A stretch of DNA of 64,000 nt. It comes from Streptomyces sp. NBC_00820 (GTDB taxonomy: Bacteria; Actinomycetota; Actinomycetes; Streptomycetales; Streptomycetaceae). The DNA is taken from contig NZ_CP108882.1 of assembly GCF_036347055.1 (NCBI RefSeq), positions 558,001 through 622,000 of the forward strand, given 5' to 3'. Both the position numbers and the translations under genes were made by a program. Shown here one piece after another: positions 7,439 through 61,000 of the stretch; position 1 is the stretch's first letter, and each line of letters begins with the position of its first letter. Under the pieces are notes generated by a model that was not told the DNA's origin, did not search any database, and saw only the letters and a program-made list of their open reading frames with translations.

Positions 7439-8047
7439 ATGGCGACGGAGGACCGGCTGCGGACCTACCGCGGCAAGCGCGACTTCGGGCGCACCCGTGA
7501 GCCGTCCGGAACGCCCCCGGCACCGGAGGGTGAGCGGCCCCGCTTCGTGGTGCAGATCCACGACGCGCGCCGGATGCACTTCGACTTCCGGCTCCAGGTG
7601 GACGACGTCCTGAAGTCCTGGTCCGTGCCCAAGGGGCCGTCGGCGGATCCCGGGGACAAGCGGCTGGCCGTGCCGACCGAGGACCACCCGCTGGAGTACG
7701 AGGAGTTCGAGGGCGTCATCCCCAAGAGCGAGTACGGGGGCGGCACCGTGATCGTCTGGGACACCGGGACCTACGAGCCGCTCAGCCACGACCGCCGGGG
7801 ACGCCCCGTGGACTTCGCCGAGTCACTGGAGCGCGGGCACGCCACCTTCCGGCTGCACGGCACCAAGCTGCGCGGCGAGTACGCCCTGACCCGCTTCCGG
7901 GGCGGGGAGGACGAGGAGGATGCCTGGCTGCTGGTGCGCAAGGGTCCGGCGCGGGCGGAGGGGCACGGCACGCCCGACCCCCGGCGGGCCCGCTCGGTAC
8001 GCACCGGCCGCACCCTCGCTCAGGTGGCCGCCGACGCCGGTGGGTGA
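7439..8047 (+). CDS. Free-standing LigD-type DNA 3'-phosphoesterase domain protein
   Basis: This 202-aa protein is almost entirely the phosphoesterase (PE, also called DNA polymerase ligase N-terminal) domain. Metal-site residues H41 and D49 with H47 lie in HDARRMHFDFRL, and H83 in EDHPLEYEEFEG; these match the His/His/Asp/His set known from Pseudomonas LigD. The following block IPKSEYGGGTVIVWDTGTYE is also diagnostic. The family trims 3'-phosphates and 3'-ribonucleotides at breaks before nonhomologous end joining. In many bacteria the domain is fused to ligase and polymerase domains; here it stands alone, and a separate ATP-dependent ligase lies 3.4 kb downstream (11440-12438). GGAAGGAG precedes the ATG. 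Confidence 0.9.
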   Translation: MATEDRLRTYRGKRDFGRTREPSGTPPAPEGERPRFVVQIHDARRMHFDFRLQVDDVLKSWSVPKGPSADPGDKRLAVPTEDHPLEYEEFEGVIPKSEYGGGTVIVWDTGTYEPLSHDRRGRPVDFAESLERGHATFRLHGTKLRGEYALTRFRGGEDEEDAWLLVRKGPARAEGHGTPDPRRARSVRTGRTLAQVAADAGG

Positions 8048-8125
8048 GCGGCGGGTGCCCGCGCGGCAGGAGGCGCCGGACCCGGGCCGCCGGTTGCCGT
8101 GACCGGGCAGCCGGCTCGGCCGGGC

Positions 8126-8593
8126 TCAGCCCTTGGCGGCGCGCAGGGCGGCCAGCGCCCGGTCGGCGTGGGTGTTCATCCGCACCTCGCTGCGGACGAC
8201 CTCCAGGATCGTGCGGTCCTGCCCGATGACGAAGGTGGCCCGCTTGGTGGGCGCGAGCGCGAAGCCCCGCTTGACGCCGAACAGTTCGCGGACCGCGCCG
8301 TCGGTGTCGGAGAGCAGCGGCATGCCGAGGGTGTGCCGGCCGGCGAACTGCTGCTGGCGTTCGACGCTGTCACCGCTGATCCCGACGGGCTGCGCGCCGG
8401 CCTCGGCGAACTCCGTGGCGAGGTCACGGAAGTGGCAGGCCTCGGCGGTGCAGCCGGGCGAAAGGGCCGCGGGATAGAAGAACAGCACCACCGGTCCGTC
8501 GGCGAGCAGTTCCGTGAGGCTGCGCGTGGTGCCGGTCTCGTCCGGCAGCGCGAAGTCCTCGGCCTTCTGTCCGACCTCGATGCGTTCGCTCAT
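8126..8593 (-). CDS. Peroxiredoxin of the AhpC/TSA (BCP/PrxQ) type
   Basis: The 155-aa product has a thioredoxin-like fold with the peroxidatic motif as YPAALSPGCTAEAC: C48 is the peroxidatic and C53 the likely resolving cysteine, as in BCP/PrxQ enzymes. The family's usual Thr of PxxxTPGCT is Ser here, a conservative change. The remainder (VGISGDSVERQQQFAG and PLLSDTDGAVRELFGV) fits the family over its full length. It reduces peroxides in the cytoplasm using thiol donors. The ATG overlaps the stop of the upstream DoxX-like gene (ATGA at 8590-8593), so the two are translationally coupled. Confidence 0.92.
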   Translation of the reverse strand: MSERIEVGQKAEDFALPDETGTTRSLTELLADGPVVLFFYPAALSPGCTAEACHFRDLATEFAEAGAQPVGISGDSVERQQQFAGRHTLGMPLLSDTDGAVRELFGVKRGFALAPTKRATFVIGQDRTILEVVRSEVRMNTHADRALAALRAAKG

Positions 8594-8973
8594 GACTGTC
8601 CCTCTCCGCTTCGGGCCACACTGCGGGCCCACAGCACCATGGGCACCTGGAGAGGCAGCCGGGCCAGCGCCGCGTTGCGCTGCGACGCGGGCCGGTGACG
8701 CCAGTCCAGGGCCATCTTCACATTGGCCGGGAAGACCCCGACGAAGAAGGCGGCGGCCGCCTTCGCGGCCACCGGGCGCGTCCGGCGCGCGGCGATACCG
8801 GCCGCCAGCGCCAGTTCCACGGCCCCGCTGCCGTACGTCCACGCCCGGGGCGAGCCCGGAAGCCGCGCGGGGATCGTGGCGTCGAACTGCCTCGGGGCGG
8901 CGAAGTGGGCGACCCCGGCCGCGGCCAGCAGGCCGGCCAGCAGCAGGGCTGAGCGTTCGGTGGACCGGGGCAC
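8590..8973 (-). CDS. DoxX-family small membrane protein
   Basis: From GTG 8973 (AGGAGACGAC just upstream) the protein is 127 aa with four predicted membrane segments: an N-terminal ALLLAGLLAAAGVAHFA helix, a GSGAVELALAAGIAA helix, an AAAAFFVGVFPANVKMA helix and a C-terminal LPLQVPMVLWARSV helix. This is the DoxX layout seen in small quinone-linked or redox-associated membrane proteins, some of which in actinobacteria work with superoxide dismutase and thiol systems. Overlap with a peroxiredoxin gene supports a role in membrane-side redox defence, but that is inference. Confidence 0.8.
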   Translation of the reverse strand: MPRSTERSALLLAGLLAAAGVAHFAAPRQFDATIPARLPGSPRAWTYGSGAVELALAAGIAARRTRPVAAKAAAAFFVGVFPANVKMALDWRHRPASQRNAALARLPLQVPMVLWARSVARSGEGQS

Positions 8974-9485
8974 GTCGTCTCCTCTGGTGACCTGCCGCCG
9001 GATATTACTCCAGGGTAGAAGCCGCGAGTGATCGCGGGGTCCGGCGGTCGGGCAGTGCGGCGGCACGGCGACCCGGTGGCCGGGGGCCCACCTGTCCAGC
9101 GGTCCAGCGGTCCAGCAGTCCAGCAGTCCAGCAGTCCAGCAGTCCAGCAGTCCAGCAGTCCAGCAGTCCAGCAGTCCAGCAGTCCGAGGGTCGGTCAGTG
9201 CGACAGTCGGTCAGTCCGACGGTCGGGTGATCGGGCCACCCCGGCAACTGCCGTACGAGCGGCCCCGGTCGCCAGGCGTGCCCGGTGACCGGTCCTCCGG
9301 TACGGGGACGGCGGAACGCCCCGTCCCCGGAGACCGCGCGGACCGGCGCGCGGGCGAGTCGGCCGTCCCCGGGGACGTCCCGGGCGTCCCACGGGACGCG
9401 GGGACGGCATTGCGGGGAACCCGCGCGGCAAGGCTGGCGTCGTGATCACGGCTCGTGGTCACGAGATCGACAGCCGGAGGTTTCC
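8974..9485. other. Gene-free interval with tandem repeats between DoxX and SH3 genes
   Basis: These 512 bases lie between divergent genes. They hold the 8-bp repeat block at 9094-9185, related GTCGGTCAGT/GTCCGACGGTCGG copies just after it (9190-9232), and a G/C-rich part (9290-9410) with many GTCCCCGG-like short inverted pieces. Open frames through this stretch consist only of repeat-derived or low-complexity residues and lack ribosome binding sites. Promoters for both flanking genes should be here but I cannot place them. Confidence 0.55.
9094..9185. repeat. 8-bp tandem repeat (GTCCAGCA), 11 full copies
   Basis: Eleven consecutive copies of GTCCAGCA follow each other without interruption, the first two being GTCCAGCG, with half a copy at the end. 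Because the period is not a multiple of three, every reading frame through it cycles, which argues against coding. It is the kind of locus that changes copy number by slippage. Confidence 0.92.
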
Positions 9486-10067
9486 ATGATCCGACGGACC
9501 CTCAAGAGCGGCCTGCTGACCACGGTCGCGGTGCTCGCCTTCCTGCCCACGGCGGCCGGCGCGGCCCCGGCAACCGCCGCGGTCCCGCACCCGGTGCCCG
9601 CCATGACGGCCCAGCACTCCGCGTACCCCGCCCCGTACCCGGCCCTCCTCGTCCAGCACCGGACGGGCCACGCCGCGTACCGCACCCGCCGCACGGCATG
9701 CCGTACGTACGGCATCCGCCACTCCGCCTGCCGTACGTACCGCACGTACCGCCGGCTCCACCCGAGTCGCGCCCGCCACATCGTCACGCGGAGCCTCTCG
9801 TACCACCGCACCCTGCCCGCCGCCCACCGCACCGTGCCCGTCGTCGGCCGGGTGGCCACGCGTCGCACCCGGCTGAACGTCCGTTCCGGCCCGGGCACCG
9901 GCTACCGCGTGATCGGCCACCGGCACGCGCGCCGGCTGCTCACGCTCTCCTGCCGGACCCACGGCTCCGGGGTGTACGGCAACCACACCTGGTACCGGCT
10001 CCCGCACCGCCGGGGGTACGTCGCCGCCCACTACGTGCGCACCGGGCGCGCCGTCCCCTGGTGCTGA
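9486..10067 (+). CDS. Secreted, highly basic SH3-domain protein
   Basis: The ATG at 9486 follows GGAGG at ideal spacing and gives 193 aa. Residues 1-27 are a signal peptide (LLTTVAVLAFLPTAAGAAPA). Residues about 35-125 form an unusual low-complexity segment rich in Arg, His, Tyr and Thr with repeated YRT/CRT pieces and very few acidic residues. The C-terminal part (about 127-193) is a bacterial SH3 domain: TRRTRLNVRSGPGTGYRVIG is the canonical RSGP motif, followed by TWYRLPHRRGYVAAHYVR. Such domains usually bind peptidoglycan. The cationic linker suggests interaction with anionic polymers such as teichoic acids or DNA at the surface. A strong terminator follows, so the gene is monocistronic. 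Confidence 0.83.
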   Translation: MIRRTLKSGLLTTVAVLAFLPTAAGAAPATAAVPHPVPAMTAQHSAYPAPYPALLVQHRTGHAAYRTRRTACRTYGIRHSACRTYRTYRRLHPSRARHIVTRSLSYHRTLPAAHRTVPVVGRVATRRTRLNVRSGPGTGYRVIGHRHARRLLTLSCRTHGSGVYGNHTWYRLPHRRGYVAAHYVRTGRAVPWC

Positions 10068-11439: not shown

Positions 11440-12438
11440 ATGCCTTCTGCCGTGACCGTCATGACTCTGCCGCTCGTCCCGCCGATGCTCGCCACCGCGG
11501 GCAGTCTGCCGCCGGCCGCCCAGGACGCGCGGTGGGCGTACGAGACGAAACAGGACGGTCAGCGGGTGATGGTCTACCTGCCCGGTGACGGCAGAGTGCT
11601 GCTGCGCGCCCGCTCCGGCGAGGACATCACCGGCGCCTACCCCGAACTCGCGGCACTCGGCGGCGCCCTGGGCGGCACGCCCGCCGTGCTGGACGGCGAG
11701 GTGCTGGCGCTGGACGGACAGGGGCGGGCCGACTTCCAGTTGCTGCAGAGCCGGATGGGGCTCGCCCACTCCCCCGCGCTGGCGGCACGCCGGGCCGCCC
11801 AGGTGCCGGTGCATCTGGTGCTGTTCGACGTGCCCTACCTGACGGAGCCACTGCTGCGGGTCCCGTACGCGCGACGCCGGACACGGCTGGAGGAGCTGGG
11901 CCTGGCCGGGGCGTACTGGTCCACGCCCGCCGCGGTGGTGGGGCACGGCGCCGAGGCCCTGCGTGCCACCCGGGAGCACGGCCTGGAGGGGCTCGTGTGC
12001 AAGCGGCTGGACTCGGTGTACGAGCCGGGGGTGCGGTCCCGGTCCTGGATCAAGATCCGGAACATGCGCAGCGAGGACGTGATCGTGGGCGGCTGGCTGC
12101 CCGGCAAGGGGCGGCTGGCCGGGCTGCCCGGCGCGGTACTGGTCGGCCAGCGGGGCGGCGGCCTGCTGCGGTACGCCGGCCGGGTGGGCACCGGCTGGAG
12201 CGAGGCGGAACGCGCCGAACTGGCGGCGCTGTTGCGGGCCGCCGCGAGCGACCGATGCCCCTTCGACCCGGTGCCGCGGATCCCGGACGCGCACTGGGTG
12301 CTGCCCCGGCTGGTCGGCGAGGTCGGCTACAGCACGCGGACCCGGGCCGGGCTGCTGCGCCAGCCGTCCTGGCTGCGGCTGCGCCCGGACCTCACGCCGC
12401 GGGAGTCCGCGGCCGACCTTCCCGAGGGTTTCCGCTGA
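11440..12438 (+). CDS. ATP-dependent DNA ligase (LigD/LigC ligase-domain type)
   Basis: The 332-aa protein starts at ATG 11440 (GGGGGGA upstream; ATG 11461, seven codons later, is an alternative). Nucleotidyltransferase motifs are in order: motif I ETKQDGQR with the AMP-accepting K37, LDGEVLALD (motif III), HLVLFDVPYL (IIIa), EGLVCKR (IV), and SWIKIRN (V). The C-terminal OB-fold follows (EDVIVGGWLPGKG then LLRYAGRVGTGW). It contains only ligase and OB domains, with no phosphoesterase or polymerase domain. It would seal nicks or ends during end joining. The separate PE-domain gene at 7439-8047 would complement it; no ku gene or LigD polymerase domain is in the window. Confidence 0.92.
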   Translation: MPSAVTVMTLPLVPPMLATAGSLPPAAQDARWAYETKQDGQRVMVYLPGDGRVLLRARSGEDITGAYPELAALGGALGGTPAVLDGEVLALDGQGRADFQLLQSRMGLAHSPALAARRAAQVPVHLVLFDVPYLTEPLLRVPYARRRTRLEELGLAGAYWSTPAAVVGHGAEALRATREHGLEGLVCKRLDSVYEPGVRSRSWIKIRNMRSEDVIVGGWLPGKGRLAGLPGAVLVGQRGGGLLRYAGRVGTGWSEAERAELAALLRAAASDRCPFDPVPRIPDAHWVLPRLVGEVGYSTRTRAGLLRQPSWLRLRPDLTPRESAADLPEGFR

Positions 12439-51580: not shown

Positions 51581-52447
51581 TCAGTCGTGCGGGACCACCG
51601 CCACCGGGCACTCCGCGTGGTGCAGCACCCCGTGCGCGACCGAGCCGATACGGGCGCCGACGGCCGTGCGGTGGGCGCGGCGGCCCACGACCAGCAGCTG
51701 AGCCCGCCCGGCCAGTGACAGCAGCACCTGGCCGGCGCTGCCCAGCTCCACGTGCTCGGCCACCGGGACCTCGGGGTAGCGCTCCCGCCAGGGTCCGAGC
51801 GCGTCGGCCAGGGCCTGCTTCTCGTACGGTTCGAGGCCGCCGGCGTCGTCCAGGAGCTTGAGCGAGGCCGGGCTGTAGGCGAAGACGGGCGGCAGGGTCC
51901 AGGCGCGGACGGCCCGTACGGTGGCGCCCCGGGCGGCCGCCGTCTCGAACGCGAAGGACAGCGCGGCCGCGCTGTCCTCCGGGCCGCCGTGCTGGCCGAC
52001 GACGACGTCCCGTCCGCCGGCCTCGGCCACCGGCTCGTCCCCGGCGCGTACCAGGACCACGGGCCGGTGCGCCTCGGCGATCACCTGCCGGCCGACCGAG
52101 CCGAGCAGGAACCCGACCACCGGGCCGTGCCCGCGCGAGCCCAGCACCAGCATCTCGGCGTCGGCGGCAGCCTCGGCCAGCGCCTCCGCGGCCCCGCCTT
52201 CCAGCACGTCGACACCGACCTCCGGCACCTGGTGCCGCCCGCAGACGGCGCGCACGGCCTCGGCGACCCCGTCCGTCACCCACCCCTGCTGGGTGTCGCG
52301 GTCGGCCCCGGGGAGCGCGTCGGCGTAGCGCCACGCGTGCACCACGCGCAGGGGCAGTCCCCGGCGTACGGCCTCGCGGGCGGCCCAGTCCAGCGCGGCC
52401 AGGCTCTCCTCCGTACCGTCCACCCCTGCCGTGATCGGACGTGTCAT
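51581..52447 (-). CDS. Tandem-domain universal stress protein
   Basis: ATG 52447 gives 288 aa with two UspA domains. The first (1-140) opens RPITAGVDGTEESLAALDWA and has the ATP-binding motif GSRGHGPVVGFLLGSVGRQV. The second opens DVVVGQHGGPEDSAAALSFA and has VVGRRAHRTAVGARIGSVAH with the same G-x2-G-x9-G-S spacing, then HHAECPVAVVPHD. Such proteins in actinobacteria respond to hypoxia, oxidants or dormancy and bind ATP. It diverges from the redox-signalling operon at 52683-56175, and both may share stress control from the 235-bp region between them. Confidence 0.93.
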   Translation of the reverse strand: MTRPITAGVDGTEESLAALDWAAREAVRRGLPLRVVHAWRYADALPGADRDTQQGWVTDGVAEAVRAVCGRHQVPEVGVDVLEGGAAEALAEAAADAEMLVLGSRGHGPVVGFLLGSVGRQVIAEAHRPVVLVRAGDEPVAEAGGRDVVVGQHGGPEDSAAALSFAFETAAARGATVRAVRAWTLPPVFAYSPASLKLLDDAGGLEPYEKQALADALGPWRERYPEVPVAEHVELGSAGQVLLSLAGRAQLLVVGRRAHRTAVGARIGSVAHGVLHHAECPVAVVPHD

Positions 52448-52682
52448 GCGTGGGCCTCCCTGGTTGTTCGGTGTCCGTGGGAGCCAGTCTTCCCCGAGCG
52501 GCGCACTCTCCCCCGGCGTTCCCGGAAGGCCACGTGGCCGCGGTGACCGAGGCGGCCCCGGTGGCCGAGGTGACCACCGCGTGCCGGGGCGAACCCGGGC
52601 GATCGAACATACGATGGGCGGGAACCGGTGCGGTGGCTCCGCGTCACCGTCTCGTGGATCCGGCCGCTCGGGTGGGAGACGT

Positions 52683-54359
52683 ATGGCACAGGCCGCCGAC
52701 GCAGCGCGGACCGTCATCCTGACCGTGGACGACGACCCGGGGGTCTCCCGCGCCGTCGCCCGTGACCTCAGACGCCGCTACGGGGCGTCGTACCGGATCG
52801 TGCGCGCGGAGTCCGGGGAGTCCGCGCTGGACGCGCTGCGCGAGCTGAAGCTGCGCGGCGACCTGGTGGCGGTGATCCTCGCGGACTACCGGATGCCGCA
52901 GATGAACGGTATCGAGTTCCTGGAGCAGGCCCTCGACGTGTATCCGGGGGCGCGGCGGGTGCTGCTGACCGCGTACGCGGACACGGGCGCGGCGATCGAC
53001 GCGATCAACGTCGTGGACCTGGACCACTACCTGCTCAAGCCGTGGGACCCGCCGGAGGAGAAGCTCTACCCGGTGCTGGACGACCTGCTCCAGGCCTGGC
53101 GGTGCAGCGACTACCGGCCGGTGCCCGCCACGAAGGTGGTCGGGCACCGCTGGTCGGCGCGCTCCTCGGACGTGCGCGAGTTCCTGGCCCGCAACCAGGT
53201 GCCGTACCGCTGGTACTCGGTGGAGGAGCCGGAGGGCCGGCGGCTGCTGGCGGCGGCCGGGCAGGACGGCCGGCGGCTGCCCCTGGTGATCACCCCGGAC
53301 GGCACGGTCCTGGTCGAGCCCGAGGCGCCCGAGCTGGCCGCGCGGGTGGGCCTGGCGACGACACCCACGGCCGACTTCTACGACCTGGTGGTGATCGGCG
53401 GCGGTCCGGCCGGACTGGGCGCGGCCGTGTACGGGGCCTCTGAGGGGCTGCGGACCGTCCTCGTGGAGCGGTCGGCGACGGGCGGGCAGGCCGGGCAGAG
53501 CTCCCGGATCGAGAACTACCTCGGCTTCCCCGACGGCGTCTCCGGTGCCCAGCTCACCGACCGGGCGCGGCGGCAGGCGACCAGGTTCGGCGCCGAGATC
53601 CTCACCGCGCGCGAGGTGACGCGGCTGGAGATCAACGGGGCGGCGCGGATCGTGCACTTCGCGGACGGCACGGCGATCGCGGCGCACAGCGTGATCCTGG
53701 CGACGGGCGTGCAGTACCGGCAGCTTGAGGCCGAGGGCTGCCTCGACCTGACCGGCTGCGGGGTGTTCTACGGCTCCGCGCTGACCGAGGCGGCCTCCTG
53801 CCAGGACCACGACGTGTACATCGTCGGCGGCGCCAACTCGGCCGGGCAGGCGGCGATGTACCTGGCCCGGTACGCCAAGTCGGTGACGCTGCTGGTGCGC
53901 GGGGCCGACCTGTCGGCGTCGATGTCGCACTACCTGGTCCAGCAGATCGACGACGCCCCGAACATCTCGGTGCGCCCGCACACGGTGGTCGACGCCGCGC
54001 ACGGCTCGGACCGCCTGGAGCGGCTGACGCTGCGCCATGTGGCCAGCGGGGAGAGCGAACAGGTCGACGCGCAGTGGATGTTCGTGTTCATCGGCGCGGC
54101 CCCGCTCACCGACTGGCTGGGTGACTCGGTGCTGCGGGACGCGCGGGGGTTCATCCTGGCCGGGCCCGACCTGACCGCCGACGGGCGGCCGCCGGCCGGC
54201 TGGGAGCTGGACCGGCCGCCGTACCACCTGGAGACCAGTGTGCCGGGCGTGTTCGTGGCGGGCGACGCGCGCGCGGAGTCCGCCAAGCGCGTCGCGTCCG
54301 CCGTCGGAGAGGGAGCCATGGCCGTCATGCTCGTCCACCGGTATCTGGAGCAGTCGTGA
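52683..54359 (+). CDS. Receiver / thioredoxin-like / thioredoxin-reductase-like fusion protein
   Basis: ATG 52683 (GGGAGACGT upstream) gives 558 aa. Residues about 10-130 are a CheY-type receiver: DDD at 17-19, phospho-acceptor D68 in VILADYRMPQMNG, Thr in VLLTAYADTGAA and Lys in HYLLKPWDPP. Residues about 150-225 look like a thioredoxin/glutaredoxin-fold domain without a CxxC (FLARNQVPYRWYSVEEPEGR). Residues 228-558 are a pyridine nucleotide-disulfide oxidoreductase of thioredoxin-reductase type (DLVVIGGGPAGLGAAVYGAS, IENYLGFPDGVSG, VYIVGGANSAGQAAMYLARY, GVFVAGDARAESAKRVASAV). The redox CATC of TrxR is replaced by GVFYGSALTEAASC, so it is not a normal TrxR. It overlaps the kinase gene by GTGA. 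Confidence 0.92.
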   Translation: MAQAADAARTVILTVDDDPGVSRAVARDLRRRYGASYRIVRAESGESALDALRELKLRGDLVAVILADYRMPQMNGIEFLEQALDVYPGARRVLLTAYADTGAAIDAINVVDLDHYLLKPWDPPEEKLYPVLDDLLQAWRCSDYRPVPATKVVGHRWSARSSDVREFLARNQVPYRWYSVEEPEGRRLLAAAGQDGRRLPLVITPDGTVLVEPEAPELAARVGLATTPTADFYDLVVIGGGPAGLGAAVYGASEGLRTVLVERSATGGQAGQSSRIENYLGFPDGVSGAQLTDRARRQATRFGAEILTAREVTRLEINGAARIVHFADGTAIAAHSVILATGVQYRQLEAEGCLDLTGCGVFYGSALTEAASCQDHDVYIVGGANSAGQAAMYLARYAKSVTLLVRGADLSASMSHYLVQQIDDAPNISVRPHTVVDAAHGSDRLERLTLRHVASGESEQVDAQWMFVFIGAAPLTDWLGDSVLRDARGFILAGPDLTADGRPPAGWELDRPPYHLETSVPGVFVAGDARAESAKRVASAVGEGAMAVMLVHRYLEQS

Positions 54360-55828
54360 GCGGGCAGCTCATGCCGTGCAGCCCGCAGGAGATCGGCTCC
54401 CTGTTCCTGTTCGAGAAGCTGGCGCCCGAGCAGTTGGGGCGGCTGTGCGGCGCGGGCCGGATCGAGCTGTTCCCGCCCGGCCCGGTGTACACCGAGGGCG
54501 AACCCGCCACCTGCTTCTACGTGATGCTGGAGGGCACGGTGGTGCTCTCCCGCCGGGTCGGCGCCGATGACGTGGAGGTGACGCGGACCTCGCAGCGCGG
54601 GGTGTACGCGGGCGCCATGCAGGCGTATCTGGGGGACCGGGTGCGGCAGGTGTACAACAACTCGATGCGGGTGACGGAGCCGACGCGGTTCTTCGTGCTG
54701 CCGGCGGAGACCTTCGCGGAGATCATGAGCGAGTGGTTCCCGATGGCCGTGCACCTGCTGGAGGGGTTGTTCTACGGCTCGAAGAACGCCCAGGCGACGG
54801 TCGGGCAGCGCGAACGGCTGCTGGCCCTCGGCTCGTTGTCCGCGGGGCTGACGCATGAGCTGAACAACCCCGCCGCGGCCGCCGTCCGGGCGACGGCCTC
54901 GCTGCGGGAGCGGGTCGCGAAGATGCGGCACAAGCTCGCCATGATCGCCGAATCACCCTTCTCCCACGAGGCCTTGGCGAACCTGATCGAGATCCAGGAG
55001 CGCACCGCCGAGCGGGTCTCCAAGGCGCCGTCGCTCAGCCCGCTGGAGGTGTCCGACCGGGAGGACGCGCTCGCGGACTGGCTGGACGACCACGGTGTCG
55101 AGGGCGGCTGGCGGATCGCGCCGGTCTTCGTGCAGGCGGGACTCGACACCGACTGGCTGGAGCAGGTCGCGGCGGCCGTCGGCGAGGAGATCCTGCCCGG
55201 GGCGGTGGGCTGGCTCAACTACACCGTCGAGACCGAGCTGTTGATGAACGAGATCGAGGACTCCACCACCCGGATCACGCATCTGGTCGACGCGGCCAAG
55301 CAGTACTCGCAGCTGGACCGGGCGCCCTACCGGGTGGTGGACGTGCACGAACTCCTCGACAGCACCCTGCTGATGCTGTCCGCCAAGATCGGCCCGCGCA
55401 TCGACGTCGTGAAGGAGTACGACCGCACGCTCCCACCGGTGCCCGCCTATCCGGCGGAGCTGAACCAGGTGTGGACGAACCTCGTCGACAACGCGGTGTC
55501 GGCCATCGACAGCGCGGGCGGGGACGGCACGCTGACCGTGCGGACGACGTCCGACCACGAGTGGCTGGTGGTGGAGTTCCGGGACACGGGACCCGGTGTC
55601 CCGCCGGACATCAAGGACCGGATCTTCGACCCGTTCTTCACCACCAAGCCGGTCGGCGAGGGCACCGGTCTCGGTCTGGACATCTCCTGGCGGATCGTCG
55701 TCAACAAGCACCACGGCGCCCTGCGGGTGGAGTCGGTGCCGGGCGACACCCGCTTCCAGGTCTTCCTTCCGCTGACCGCCGAGACACCGGACGAGGAGTC
55801 CGGTCCGACTCCCGAGGAGGCAGTATGA
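54356..55828 (+). CDS. Histidine kinase with N-terminal cyclic-nucleotide-binding-like domain
   Basis: GTG 54356, inside the upstream stop, gives 490 aa. Residues about 10-130 form a Crp-type sensor (LFLFEKLAPEQLGRLCGAGR, TEGEPATCFYVMLEGTVVLS). The dimerisation/phosphotransfer helix carries H167 in GSLSAGLTHELNNPAAAAVR. The ATPase domain has the N-box ELNQVWTNLVDNAVSAIDSA, G1 FRDTGPGVPPD, the F-box FDPFFTTKP and G2 GEGTGLGLDISWRIV. There are no membrane segments, so it is a soluble kinase. The receiver of the preceding fusion is its obvious phosphorylation target, and the sensor could read a nucleotide or redox ligand. Confidence 0.93.
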   Translation: MSGQLMPCSPQEIGSLFLFEKLAPEQLGRLCGAGRIELFPPGPVYTEGEPATCFYVMLEGTVVLSRRVGADDVEVTRTSQRGVYAGAMQAYLGDRVRQVYNNSMRVTEPTRFFVLPAETFAEIMSEWFPMAVHLLEGLFYGSKNAQATVGQRERLLALGSLSAGLTHELNNPAAAAVRATASLRERVAKMRHKLAMIAESPFSHEALANLIEIQERTAERVSKAPSLSPLEVSDREDALADWLDDHGVEGGWRIAPVFVQAGLDTDWLEQVAAAVGEEILPGAVGWLNYTVETELLMNEIEDSTTRITHLVDAAKQYSQLDRAPYRVVDVHELLDSTLLMLSAKIGPRIDVVKEYDRTLPPVPAYPAELNQVWTNLVDNAVSAIDSAGGDGTLTVRTTSDHEWLVVEFRDTGPGVPPDIKDRIFDPFFTTKPVGEGTGLGLDISWRIVVNKHHGALRVESVPGDTRFQVFLPLTAETPDEESGPTPEEAV

Positions 55829-56175
55829 GCGGCGACGAGGCGATCGACCCGGGCGTTCCCCCCAGCGGCACCGGGTGCGTCGAGTGCGACGACGCGGGCG
55901 GCTGGTGGTTCCATCTGCGCCGGTGCGCGCAGTGTGGGCACATCGGCTGCTGTGACGACTCCCCCTCCAAGCACGCCACGGCCCACTACCGGGCCACCGG
56001 CCATCCGGTGATCCGCAGCTTCGAGCCGGGCGAGGAGTGGTTCTGGAACTTCGCCGAGAACGAGCTGTACAACTCGGGCCCCGAACTCGCTCCCCCGGCC
56101 TGCCATCCCGAGGACCAGCCGGTGCCGGGCCCGGCCGGACGGGTGCCGGCGAACTGGGCGGACACGCTGCGCTGA
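55825..56175 (+). CDS. UBP-type (ZnF-UBP) zinc-finger protein
   Basis: ATG 55825 follows GAGGAGGCAGT and overlaps the kinase stop as ATGA; the product is 116 aa. The UBP zinc finger is complete: C18 and C21 in GCVECDD, C34 and C37 in RRCAQCGHIGCC, further Cys 42/43, then H50, H54 and H60 in SKHATAHYRATGHP, followed by FEPGEEWFWNFAENEL. In eukaryotes this domain grips the free C-terminal Gly-Gly of ubiquitin. Bacterial members are common in actinobacteria and proteobacteria with unknown ligand. Coupled translation with a kinase and a reductase-like protein suggests it works with them. Confidence 0.93.
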   Translation: MSGDEAIDPGVPPSGTGCVECDDAGGWWFHLRRCAQCGHIGCCDDSPSKHATAHYRATGHPVIRSFEPGEEWFWNFAENELYNSGPELAPPACHPEDQPVPGPAGRVPANWADTLR

Positions 56176-56200: not shown

Positions 56201-57520
56201 TCAGCGCCCGCAGTCGAGGCTGCCGGGGTCCACGGCGTCGGCCAGGGCCCGCATGCCCCGGTCGCCGGGGTGGAGGTGGTCGCCGCTGTCGAGGGCGGGC
56301 CTCATCCGCGCGGGGTCGTCGGGGCTGCCGAGGACCCGGTCGAAGTCGGCGACCGCGTCGAAGGCGCCGCCGGTGCGGATGAACCGGTTCACTTCCTGGC
56401 GTACCGCCTCGGCGGCCGGGCTCCACTCGGGCCAGCCCTTGAAGGGGCCGACCGTCGCCCCCACCACGCATGTCCCGGCCGCGTGCGCGCGCCTGACGAT
56501 CTGGCGGTAGCCGGCGACGAGCTCGGCCGCGGAGGCTCCGCCGACCGCCTTGATGTCGTTGACCCCTTCGAAGAGGACCACGGTGCGCACACCGGGCTGG
56601 GAGAGGACGTCCCGGTCCAGCCGGCGCAGGGCGCTCTGTCCTCCGGCGTCCTGGAGGACCTCGTTGCCCGACATCCCCGCGTCGGCCACGCCCTTGACGT
56701 GTGTGCCGGCCTTGCGCAGACGCCGGGCGAGGTAGTCGGTCCAGCGCCGGTCGCGGTCGGCGGTGGACCGCAGACCGTCGGTCAGGGAGTCGCCGAGCGC
56801 GACGACGGCTCCGGTGGCGGGGTGGGCCGGGCGCACGGAGACGGCGTCCAGGTACCACCAGGAGCCGGTGGTCCGCGTCCAGTGCGCGGCCCTGTCCTCG
56901 GCGGTGTGGTCGCCCTCGGTGACGTACGACGTCTGCAGGGCCGTCACATGGCCGGTGGCCGGCCCCCGCGCGCCGGGGGTGCGGAGGCTGACGGCCAGCG
57001 CGGCGGCGGCCGGCAGCCTGCCCGGCAGCGGATCGCTCCACGCGACGGCGCCGGCCGGCACGGTGACCGTGCGGGCTCCGCCGAAGGTCAGCGGCCGGTT
57101 GCTGCCCCCGCGCAGGGCGGCACCCTCGCTCCGCAGGCCCGCGTAGACCTTGTCCACGGTGAGCGGGCGGTCGCCGAAGGCGTTCGAGAGGCGGATCCGC
57201 AGGCCGCTCCCGCCGACGCTGGTGCGCACGACGAGCCGGTAGCCGCGGCCGGCGACGCCCTCGCCGGCGAGGCCGGCGCTCGCCGCCCAGGTGACGACTC
57301 CGGAGGGCCTGCCGACGGTCACGGGAAGGGTGCCCGCGGCCCCGGCGGGCTGGGCCTGCCCGGCGAGGGCGAGGAGCAGAAGGGCCGCGGCACGCGGGAC
57401 GGCCCCGGAACGGGCGTTCACCGTGCCACGTGCCGCCGCGTCCCGCCGTGCCACGGACCCGCCGGGCCCGGGCCGCGGGCGGGCCGTACGGGACGTGCCT
57501 GCGCGTCTCACGCACGCCAT
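56201..57520 (-). CDS. Secreted SGNH/GDSL-family esterase or lipase
   Basis: ATG 57520, behind GGCGGGACG, gives 439 aa; GTG starts nearer the hydrophobic core also exist. A long Arg-rich head precedes the hydrophobic stretch PRAAALLLLALAGQAQPAGA, fitting an export signal. An extra N-terminal beta-domain (GYRLVVRTSVGGSGLRIRLS, residues to about 225) comes before the SGNH hydrolase: S245 in VALGDSLTDG, the Gly/Asn blocks ADAGMSGNEVLQ and FEGVNDIKAV, and the catalytic Asp-His in DSGDHLHPGDRGM. It would hydrolyse esters outside the cell, for example acyl groups on polysaccharide. It is read in the same direction as the M4 gene upstream but separated by a terminator. Confidence 0.9.
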   Translation of the reverse strand: MACVRRAGTSRTARPRPGPGGSVARRDAAARGTVNARSGAVPRAAALLLLALAGQAQPAGAAGTLPVTVGRPSGVVTWAASAGLAGEGVAGRGYRLVVRTSVGGSGLRIRLSNAFGDRPLTVDKVYAGLRSEGAALRGGSNRPLTFGGARTVTVPAGAVAWSDPLPGRLPAAAALAVSLRTPGARGPATGHVTALQTSYVTEGDHTAEDRAAHWTRTTGSWWYLDAVSVRPAHPATGAVVALGDSLTDGLRSTADRDRRWTDYLARRLRKAGTHVKGVADAGMSGNEVLQDAGGQSALRRLDRDVLSQPGVRTVVLFEGVNDIKAVGGASAAELVAGYRQIVRRAHAAGTCVVGATVGPFKGWPEWSPAAEAVRQEVNRFIRTGGAFDAVADFDRVLGSPDDPARMRPALDSGDHLHPGDRGMRALADAVDPGSLDCGR

Positions 57521-57592
57521 CGTCCCGCCATTCGGGTGAATTCGCACCTCGATGGGTTTCACGCCCAGGACGCCGACCCGGCTCCGGCTCCG

Positions 57593-57632
57593 GATGTGCG
57601 GATGTGCGGATGTGCGGATGTGCGGATGTGCG
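57593..57632. repeat. 8-bp tandem repeat (GATGTGCG), five copies
   Basis: Five exact copies of GATGTGCG abut the terminator stem between the M4 protease and GDSL genes. Like the block at 9094, the 8-bp period is incompatible with conserved coding. Confidence 0.92.
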
Positions 57633-57659
57633 GATGCCCCGCGCGGGGCGGGGCATCCG
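57631..57659 (-). terminator. Hairpin terminator of the second M4 protease gene
   Basis: CGGATGCCCCGC and GCGGGGCATCCG form a perfect 12-bp stem with a 5-nt loop, 27 nt after the protease stop on the minus strand. The last repeat unit feeds into the stem, so slippage there could alter the flank. Confidence 0.85.
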
Positions 57660-57685
57660 GTGGTGCTGGTGTTCGCCTGCGACGA

Positions 57686-59479
57686 TCAGTGACCGGCGGC
57701 CGGCGCGTTGGCGGCGGTGACGTTGACCGCGGCCCACGCCTTGTCCACCGTCTTGTACTCGGTGCTGGTCGACCCGTACAGGTCCTTGGCCGCCTTCAGC
57801 GTCGCGGCGCGCGCGTCGTGGAAGTCGGTCGAGGAGACCATGTAGCGGGTCAGAGCCCGGTAGAAGATGGCGGTCGCCTTGGTACGGCCGATGCCCTTGA
57901 CCGTGGACCCGTTGTAGGTCGGCGAGTTGTAGGCGACGGTGCCGATCGTCTTCTTGCCGCTGCCCTCCGCGAGGAGGTAGTAGGCGTGCGAGGAGACGCC
58001 GGACCCGGCGTGCACCTCCGTGTAGTACGTGTCCGGCGACCAGTAGTCGATCGTGCCCTCGAGCTTGTCGAGCGACGGGTGGTCCAGACGGCGCAGGAAC
58101 TTCTGGGCCAGGCCCAGCTTCTCGCCGATCAGGTAGTCCGGCGTGTCCTTCGCGTTCTTCGCGTAGAACTCCACGTTGGAGCCGAAGATGTCCGCGAGCG
58201 ACTCGTTCAGCGCGCCGGGCTCGCCGTACTGGTTGCCGTCCGAGTCGACGTAGGTCGGCTCGAGCTTGGCGGTCGAGTCCACGACGCCGTGGGTCAGCTC
58301 GTGACCGGTGACGTCGAGGACGACGAGCGGCTTCTTGAACATGTCGCCGTCGCCGTCGCCGTACAGCATGCAGGTGCAGGCCGGGTCCCAGAAGGCGTTG
58401 GCGACGCCACGGCCCCAGTGGACCATGCCGCGCGCGGCCTTGCTGTTGTTGGCTATGCCCTTGCGGCCGAAGGTCTTCTTGTAGAAGTCCAGCGTCTTCG
58501 TGATGCCGTACTGGGCGTCGGCGGCGGCGCTGGCGCGGTTGCTGGTCGCGCCGTTGCCCCACACGTCGGTGGTGTTGGTGAACTTCGTTCCCGCGCTGAA
58601 GCTCTCCGTGTACTTGCCCTTGGCGTCACGCGTCTCGCTGCCGTACCGGCTCGGGTCCTTCAGCTGGTAGTGGCCGCGCGAGGTCGCCGTGGTGGTGAGG
58701 CCGACACTGCCCATGAAGAGGGTCTTGCCGGTGCCGTGCGCGGTCGCGGGGTAGTGCGTCACGCCCGAGAGCCGCGCGCCGAGCAGCCCGGCCATCGAGG
58801 GCGCGCTGCCGGTGGCCGGCTCGGCCGTCTCGCCACGCTTGCGCAGGGTCTTGAGCAGCTTCGGCGACAGGAACTCGTCGGCGTCCGGCGTGTTGCTGCG
58901 CACCTTGCCGGTGAGGGCGTCGACGACGACCGTGCTGGAACCGCCGTCGGCGGAGTCGGTGCCGGTCACCGTCACCTGGTAGGCGAGGGTGGCGGCGCCT
59001 CCGCGGGCGTCCACCACCAGCGCCACGCTGTCCGCGTCGCCCTGGGCCGCCTCGGCGGCCTTCGCGGCGGCCTGGCCGGCCGTCAGCTTGGGCGTGGTGG
59101 CGGCGGGCTTCACGGCGTGGTCGGCGGCACGGGTGACACCCGTGTACGCCAGCTGCCGGTTCAGGTGGACGACGAGGTCGCCGCCGAGCACCGGCATGCC
59201 GTCGTGGCTGCGGACGAAACGGACGTGCCGCGCGCCCTCGGGGTCGACCATCACGTCCTGGGCGACGAGTTCGTCACCCTGGGAGACGCCGGTCTCGGAG
59301 GTGTGGGCGAAGGCCGCGGCGCGCGCCGCCTCCACCACCGCCGTGGCCGTCGTGGCGGTGGAGGCGGCAGAAGGCGCCACCCCCGTGGCGGGCCCCGCGA
59401 CGGCCGTACCGGCCAGGCCCGTGGCAGCCGTCGTCACCGCGACGGCGACGGCGAGGCTGCGTATGTGCGGTCTACGCAC
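57686..59479 (-). CDS. Secreted M4 neutral zinc metalloprotease (second copy)
   Basis: GTG 59479 (AAGGAACA upstream) gives 597 aa. A signal peptide (SLAVAVAVTTAATGLAGTAV) is followed by an FTP/PepSY propeptide (MPVLGGDLVVHLNRQLAYTG) and the catalytic domain with H393-E-L-T-H397 and the zinc-ligand E426 in PGALNESLADIFG. The HEXXH-to-Glu spacing is 33 residues compared with 24 in the other copy, because of a 9-residue insertion (EPTYVDSDGNQYGEPG region). A Cys pair CTCMLYGDGDGD precedes a calcium-type loop. It ends soon after the catalytic domain, without the Ig-like and C-terminal domains of the 400-2805 paralogue. It is an extracellular protease expected to self-activate. Confidence 0.92.
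   Translation of the reverse strand: MRRPHIRSLAVAVAVTTAATGLAGTAVAGPATGVAPSAASTATTATAVVEAARAAAFAHTSETGVSQGDELVAQDVMVDPEGARHVRFVRSHDGMPVLGGDLVVHLNRQLAYTGVTRAADHAVKPAATTPKLTAGQAAAKAAEAAQGDADSVALVVDARGGAATLAYQVTVTGTDSADGGSSTVVVDALTGKVRSNTPDADEFLSPKLLKTLRKRGETAEPATGSAPSMAGLLGARLSGVTHYPATAHGTGKTLFMGSVGLTTTATSRGHYQLKDPSRYGSETRDAKGKYTESFSAGTKFTNTTDVWGNGATSNRASAAADAQYGITKTLDFYKKTFGRKGIANNSKAARGMVHWGRGVANAFWDPACTCMLYGDGDGDMFKKPLVVLDVTGHELTHGVVDSTAKLEPTYVDSDGNQYGEPGALNESLADIFGSNVEFYAKNAKDTPDYLIGEKLGLAQKFLRRLDHPSLDKLEGTIDYWSPDTYYTEVHAGSGVSSHAYYLLAEGSGKKTIGTVAYNSPTYNGSTVKGIGRTKATAIFYRALTRYMVSSTDFHDARAATLKAAKDLYGSTSTEYKTVDKAWAAVNVTAANAPAAGH

Positions 59480-61000
<1,521 letters not shown>

Follow-up and report, generated by a model that had tools for sequence, protein, structure and literature searches.

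Most characterised response regulators alter transcription or second messengers, and those with an enzymatic output include the CheB, GGDEF/EAL and PP2C types; we know of no characterised response regulator that uses a pyridine-nucleotide flavoprotein as its output. The operon described here lies at positions 52683 to 56175 of a 64,000-nucleotide stretch of Streptomyces sp. NBC_00820 (contig NZ_CP108882.1, positions 558,001 to 622,000 of an 8.1 Mb genome in a single contig), and this whole stretch is called the window below. Its three genes are named TR (flavoprotein), HK (histidine kinase) and ZF (zf-UBP zinc finger). Like the CheB, GGDEF/EAL and PP2C types, the operon has a receiver fused to an enzyme and a probable cognate kinase encoded next door. 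Judged from the sequences compared, TR and HK, in places joined by ZF, form a real and widely conserved device, and the idea of a kinase acting on a flavoenzyme is well supported by this comparison.

The enzymatic part of TR resembles AhpF and the low-molecular-mass thioredoxin reductases (TrxR) in placing a TrxR-like FAD/NAD(P)H module after a thioredoxin-fold domain. It differs from them in lacking both the CxxC pair of the module and any conserved cysteine in the thioredoxin-fold domain, in carrying a regulatory N-terminal domain, and in possessing one thioredoxin-fold domain where AhpF has two. ZF shares its fold family with the ZnF-UBP domains of USP5 and HDAC6 and with the bacterial 2ida protein but lacks the Arg/RRY motif for the ubiquitin tail. 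The fusion architecture has already been annotated, since some homologues carry the NCBI names “fused response regulator/thioredoxin-disulfide reductase” or “cyclic nucleotide-binding domain-containing thioredoxin-disulfide reductase”, most others being called “FAD-dependent oxidoreductase”. The first two names imply a thioredoxin-disulfide reductase activity, against which the missing CxxC of TR speaks. Among the full-text matches listed from open-licence PMC articles, no title or abstract opening describes the operon, and in the accessible part of a review of Deinococcus thiol reductases “response regulator” occurs in the references only, with “cyclic nucleotide” and “UBP” absent (PMC8945050). 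The operon is organized as follows.

52683..54359, + strand: TR, a receiver / thioredoxin-fold / TrxR-like flavoprotein of 558 aa (Met at 52683, stop 54357-54359)
52716..53054, + strand: receiver domain of TR, aa 12-124 (Pfam Response_reg, 52.9 bits; D68 codon 52884-52886)
53130..53345, + strand: thioredoxin/glutaredoxin-fold domain of TR without conserved cysteines, aa 150-221 (model secondary structure; alignment of 20 homologues)
53379..54350, + strand: TrxR-like FAD/NAD(P)H domain of TR, aa 233-556 (Pfam Pyr_redox_2 at aa 233-544, 105 bits)
53775..53786, + strand: position of the CxxC in true TrxR, here S365-A-L-T368, then E369 (alignment to true TrxR chains)
54356..54359, + strand: GTGA stop/start overlap of TR and HK
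54356..55828, + strand: HK, a histidine kinase without evident membrane segment, 490 aa (start GTG 54356; H167 codon 54854-54856)
54485..54730, + strand: cNMP-binding-like sensor domain of HK, aa 44-125 (Pfam cNMP_binding PF00027, 32.6 bits, cut-off 27.5)
55454..55777, + strand: HATPase_c domain of HK, aa 367-474 (Pfam, 84.7 bits)
55825..55828, + strand: ATGA stop/start overlap of HK and ZF
55825..56175, + strand: ZF, a zf-UBP zinc-finger protein of 116 aa (start ATG 55825)

A sequence-only reading of this DNA had proposed a receiver with D68 in TR, and the Pfam match bears this out: D68 is kept, together with D16, D17, T96 and K119, in all 31 aligned close TRs, giving a full phospho-acceptor site. 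The same reading supposed that the kinase phosphorylates a flavoenzyme rather than a transcription factor, and comparison supports this, as the presence of HK tracks the integrity of the receiver. A draw of 119 genomes taken evenly from the phylum and searched with TR gave 82 places in 62 genomes; 44 of these were read with their flanks and domain-scored (the 43 best and G092:C9; L and G numbers are our labels for loci and genomes), the 38 weaker being left out. A receiver was called well conserved if it scored at least 100 bits and kept the phosphorylation-site residues. Fifteen of the 44 TRs have such a receiver, and in every one of them the gene that follows directly, in the same orientation, encodes an HK relative; one of these loci, L220, is cut by the contig end, and another, L194, has Glu in place of the first Asp. 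The other 29 carry a weak receiver-like domain (17) or a cyclic nucleotide-binding (CNB) domain, or else lack a recognised domain at the N-terminus, and HK accompanies none of them, 25 being judgeable (L201, L204, L208 and L221 have less than 1 kb of downstream DNA). The 17 receiver-like domains found without HK score at most 87 bits and have lost D68 in 13 cases and T96 in 15, so most receivers unaccompanied by a kinase are degenerate.

Among 27 other loci around plasmid and genome matches, seven of which recur among the 44 places of the draw, HK is present in 10/10 with an intact receiver against 0/17 of the others (Fisher p 1.2e-7, a value that, like the one for Pup given below, assumes independent loci where the tree shows them to be related). 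Unrelated kinase genes near L137 and L142 (40 and 49 bits to HK) were not counted as HK, and because the 27 loci were partly reached through ZF matches, ZF frequencies among them are biased. Deinococcus, Caballeronia, Paraburkholderia, Gloeothece and Nostoc sp. C052 have TR and HK side by side; in Nostoc edaphicum (L133) the two are about 3 kb apart, with a transposase and a channel gene in between. In a midpoint-rooted FastTree phylogeny of 68 cores, all 27 receiver-plus-kinase TRs fall into one clade (support 0.962), whose members come from Actinomycetota, Deinococcus, Paraburkholderia/Caballeronia, Nostoc and Gloeothece (four phyla). A second clade (0.961) contains 17 of the 18 degenerate-receiver TRs, L152 standing apart. 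Taken together, these patterns suggest that HK is probably the kinase of TR. Co-occurrence across genera, which the sequence-only reading had made the test of its proposal, is found for the TR-HK pair; the complete triad was encountered in part of Actinomycetota only. The degenerate-receiver clade (L196-L211, L120), in which D68 is kept in 4/17 and no kinase was seen, may consist of phosphorylation-independent pseudo-receivers.

Closer to the window, a GTDB genome scan with TR yielded 576 relatives, the best 80 of which, at 71-94% identity to TR, were taken as close loci. HK (>300 bits) adjoins TR in all 80 and ZF (>80 bits) is present in 77, being missing from L017, L068 and L076; a few genes are split or cut (HK of L064, ZF of L024 and L067). 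Beyond Streptomyces, these loci come from Microtetraspora, Actinacidiphila, Tsukamurella, Pseudonocardia, Cellulomonas and several metagenome-assembled genomes. A 4-base in-frame overlap joins TR to HK in 69 of the 80 loci and HK to ZF in 72 of the 77 that have ZF. The gene coordinates confirm the three overlapping genes read earlier from the sequence of the window, and their overlaps support translational coupling; the fixed stoichiometry that had been read from them goes further than the overlaps do.

The earlier description of the flavoprotein part of TR as thioredoxin-reductase-like is right in fold and wrong in chemistry. The middle domain, read as thioredoxin-like, has no match in the Pfam scan, yet aa 150-221 follow a beta-alpha-beta-alpha-beta-beta-alpha order in the AlphaFold2 model, which was built from 31 sequences and fits the three-domain reading. 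In the alignment the Rossmann motifs for FAD and NAD(P)H read GGGPAG and GGANSA, and Foldseek fits the flavoprotein module to TrxR in the FR form (5mh4) with a TM of 0.91 by target length. The CxxC pair, however, is missing from all 20 diverse homologues aligned and from 43 of the 44 draw places, the exception (L221/G052) being a partial, distant match, and no conserved cysteine was found in the thioredoxin-fold domain of the 20 diverse homologues. Among the 120 closest proteins listed, the site reads GVFYGSALTEA in 87 and GVYYGSALTEA in 33, and against the NCBIfam TRX_reduct model TR scores 212 bits, 131 short of the cut-off of 343. An ordinary thioredoxin reductase is ruled out because CxxC is absent; as far as sequence can tell, TR is a TrxR fold that does not have TrxR chemistry.

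HK had been described as a soluble kinase with a Crp-like sensor. The CNB family match and the lack of any membrane segment, by eye or in the model, agree with this, but cyclic nucleotide sensing itself is uncertain: the canonical CNB phosphate-binding cassette has Glu and Arg in a GE...RA pattern, and the HK consensus GVYAGAxQAYLGDRVPQVYNNSMRV, compared by eye with this pattern, does not have it. In the kinase core, H167 was placed correctly in the earlier reading and is kept, with N375, D410 and G436, in 20/20 aligned HKs, while HisKA at aa 158-186 scores under its Pfam cut-off. The model shows long DHp helices at 145-199 and 280-320, separated by a four-helix insert at 204-275 (about 70 residues), and a matching stretch can be recognised by eye in the sequences of HK relatives from Deinococcus, Burkholderiales and cyanobacteria. 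The Foldseek matches of HK are ordinary HisKA-type kinases. C8 and C31 are invariant in the 20 triad-type kinases but not in distant relatives, and the HK relative of Nostoc edaphicum has, by eye, a receiver-like sequence at its N-terminus in place of CNB.

The operon can with fair probability be viewed as a two-component system that has an enzyme as its response regulator, with a thiol-poor NAD(P)H flavoenzyme as the output and ZF as an accessory. HK, with its CNB-like sensor, would autophosphorylate at H167 and hand the phosphate to D68 of TR, and the phosphorylated receiver would then gate the attached TrxR-like FAD/NAD(P)H module. With CxxC lost and no conserved cysteine in the thioredoxin-fold domain, the classical dithiol route would be closed to electrons; they could reach their acceptor straight from the flavin, or via C373, the single cysteine beside the lost CxxC site, in those branches that keep it. 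ZF would serve flavoproteins of this family as an accessory zinc protein, probably by partnering HK or TR or adapting substrates for them, and would not read ubiquitin or Pup tails.

Several points weigh against this account. The adjacency of TR and HK is no proof of phosphotransfer, and with the receiver-plus-kinase TRs forming one clade, their association with HK counts as one old event kept over time and not as 15. In the draw, just 5 of the 15 receiver-type TRs have ZF beside them (L186 as two pieces), and the six TR-HK loci from Deinococcus, Burkholderiales and cyanobacteria have no adjacent ZF, so that the core TR-HK device does not need ZF. Of the 44 draw places only 17 keep C373, and of the 15 receiver-type TRs 11 do. 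Confidence in the structural models is middling for both TR (pLDDT 74.9, pTM 0.50) and HK (pTM 0.38), and the best Foldseek E-value for TR, that of AhpF (4xvg, 2.4e-29), comes with a poor global superposition (TM just 0.37-0.39).

ZF itself was recognised in the earlier reading as a zf-UBP domain, and this holds: it scores 52.1 bits against the Pfam cut-off of 22.7, has invariant Cys/His columns that by sequence are the ligand positions, and alone matches PDB 2ida_A with an E of 4.9e-26. The host genome has four zf-UBP places, namely the triad, a cassette with a CNB-type TR paralogue described below, one that by eye is divergent from an antiporter-like gene (L087 8004-9922), and a fourth near which no TR, HK or antiporter was seen. 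In the phylum draw, zf-UBP occurs at 37 places in 27 of the 119 genomes. It is also found fused to the C-terminus of antiporter-like proteins (L091, L109). A fusion of HK and ZF in G097 is a single reading frame, and 52 of 120 listed matches to it (6258 in all, E <= 1e-30; counted by hand) carry PF02148 and PF02518 in one protein, which proves recurrence and not frequency, as the query is itself a fusion. At the G097 locus (L118), the fusion lies at 7777-9534 (-), downstream of TR, and a separate second ZF at 11975-12355 (-), just upstream of TR. A similar fusion considered in G100 was dropped, as HK and ZF lie there in different frames.

The assignment of roles within the pair could be reversed, the flavin module of TR acting as a sensor of redox state or NAD(P)H, the receiver feeding back to HK, and the true output being an unlinked response regulator. 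A sensor, unlike a disulfide reductase, could be expected to have lost CxxC, and some redox sensors are retired enzymes; however, the complete phosphorylation site of the 31 close receivers points to TR as the phosphate acceptor, the receiver is mostly degenerate or absent where HK is missing, and no other response regulator was seen by eye among the genes around the triad, which makes this inversion unlikely. We are similarly doubtful that TR is still a thiol reductase, working by a single-cysteine mechanism through C373 or with the flavin directly reducing a partner, for instance the thioredoxin (Trx) encoded beside CNB paralogues. Such a Trx gene does stand beside CNB-type TRs in the host genome (WCGPC), in G050, in a Rhodococcus and on two Streptomyces plasmids, C373 is kept in 31/31 close relatives and 16/20 diverse homologues, and E369, at what we take to be the position of the acid D139 of E. 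coli TrxR, is kept in 30/31 close TRs. On the other hand, the neighbourhoods of the 15 receiver-type TRs contain no Trx relative above 80 bits, and C373 itself is kept as patchily across the draw as described above. A phosphorylation-gated flavoenzyme with a kinase of its own is the reading that we retain.

For ZF, two further explanations bear on that reading. TR and HK may simply be a pair in an ordinary neighbourhood, with ZF an unrelated passenger held by translational coupling. ZF is not adjacent in 10/15 receiver-type draw loci and can be found away from TR, by itself or together with antiporter-like genes; nevertheless, it adjoins TR in four separate TR branches (intact receiver, degenerate receiver (L120), CNB and core-only), and its recurrent fusion to HK likewise tells against a passenger, so that we think this rather improbable. 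Far less probable still is that ZF reads a C-terminal Gly-Gly, of Pup or another tail, and brings that tail to the kinase/flavoenzyme pair, as the sequence-only reading had suggested. The zf-UBP fold speaks for it, and Pup is commoner in ZF genomes, with a match in 23/27 against 36/92 others (one of the 36 under the curated cut-off; Fisher p 2e-5 with no correction for descent), an association that may merely follow lineage or lifestyle. At the position of the RRY motif of USP5, however, the bacterial family has C42-C43-D44-[DSQ]45, with Asp44 in 18/18 and no Arg, within a family-specific invariant G-H-x-G-C-C-D; the register may be off by about one residue with the outcome unchanged, and a plain pairwise alignment puts H39 there, again no Arg. 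ZF-TR neighbours also occur on plasmids of Rhizobium, Agrobacterium and Burkholderia, groups that to our knowledge do not have Pup, and the triad genome G100 is among the four ZF genomes without a Pup match. In the parts of the USP5 study available, even R221K weakens binding about 43-fold (Kd 100 uM against 2.3 uM for the wild type), Y261F gives 88 uM, and a swap of RRY to KWF makes binding undetectable (PMC3247260). Pup, as given in the accessible text of its source, ends in GGE or GGQ (PMC3769308), which is no free Gly-Gly. Pup or Gly-Gly as the likely ligand was rejected on these grounds, and a Gly-Gly reader role for ZF appears unlikely from its sequence.

The recurrence of the kinase-enzyme pair in four bacterial phyla hints at a little-studied mode of control in which phosphorylation switches an enzyme and not genes. 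If the kinase does switch an NAD(P)H flavoenzyme, redox flow could be retuned without new transcription. The name “thioredoxin-disulfide reductase” would then need correcting on members of this disulfide-less family, and the range of possible ligands for the bacterial zf-UBP family would be narrowed. The linkage, together with receivers that have decayed where no kinase is present, makes the idea directly testable with two purified proteins. A bolder extension, which we consider speculative and not very likely, is a cross-phylum class of two-component systems acting directly on electron flow, in which receiver phosphorylation switches a disulfide-less TrxR-fold NAD(P)H flavoenzyme and a zf-UBP partner recognises a ligand of a new type, tying the kinase, the flavoenzyme and an antiporter into a single response to stress. 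That ligand might be a cation or an amine end and not a carboxylate tail, because an invariant Asp stands where ubiquitin readers have Arg.

The flavoprotein core (thioredoxin-fold and TrxR-like) is modular. It also occurs with CNB in a paralogue of the host genome (L086 8205-10019), in Rhodococcus (L141), Rhizobium (L137) and Agrobacterium (L140) and on Streptomyces plasmids (L149, L151), and without an N-terminal domain in L139, L142, L145, L147 and L150. The CNB-like domain is thus on the kinase in the window and on the enzyme in the paralogue, which suggests that the same kind of input may arrive either in cis or by phosphorelay. The paralogue belongs to a second cassette (L086 8205-10725; G000:C1:449204-451724) of Trx (WCGPC), ZF and the CNB/thioredoxin-fold/TrxR-like flavoprotein, on one strand with genes overlapping or abutting, and no HK relative was found in it. 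In Rhodococcus and on the Streptomyces plasmids (L141 1-5927, L149 1-5296, L151 1-5374) the order is J-domain and/or CbpM, ClpB, Trx, (ZF) and CNB-flavoprotein, L151 being without ZF, a gene order linking the flavoprotein to disaggregase genes. At three cyanobacterial loci (L133 1357-7668, L134 1330-9079, L144 1-7125), TR comes after GlgX and a gene for an AGE-family epimerase, and LtrA (“low temperature requirement protein A”) is near or downstream of the receiver-type TR-HK in two Nostoc and one Deinococcus (L136).

One paralogue locus has a Clp ATPase and PsiE nearby, and Clp ATPase, Trx or PsiE genes near the ZF/TR paralogues on plasmids recall the tLST stress island. According to the accessible text of its description, that island includes Clp ATPase, Trx and PsiE genes, and the main text available has no occurrence of “zinc” or “oxidoreductase” (PMC8290217). 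The paralogues stand in stress-related neighbourhoods, similar to parts of tLST, and the operon of the window may have a stress role of its own. No tLST-type genes (sHsp20, ClpK, YfdX, HdeD, Trx, KefB, PsiE) were seen by eye in the 17 kb around the triad, for which no family search was made.

Two features lie upstream of the operon.

52601..52617, + strand: promoter/operator-like element GATCGAACATACGATGG, an ATCG-N6-CGAT palindrome about 79 bases before the TR start
51581..52447, - strand: divergent universal stress protein gene (Pfam PF00582)

The 14-base core of GATCGAACATACGATGG has 46 exact and 10 one-mismatch copies in 81 upstream regions, while composition shuffles never came below 3 mismatches in 810; as the regions are mostly from related Streptomyces, this conservation is partly common descent. 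The 17-mer has no further copy in the 8.1 Mb genome at <=2 mismatches, and the TACGAT within it presumably fits a TANNNT -10 box, which suggests a putative dedicated promoter or operator. A DosR-type palindrome upstream of TR was no better than shuffles and was discarded, and a sigma-70 and terminator scan found nothing. The divergent universal stress protein gene, taken in the earlier reading to lend a redox or stress flavour, is real, but it lies close upstream in just 43 of the 80 related loci. On the 3' side of the triad (56201-61000), genes unconnected with the finding encode, by eye from their translations, an SGNH-type esterase, an M4-type metalloprotease and a serine hydrolase.

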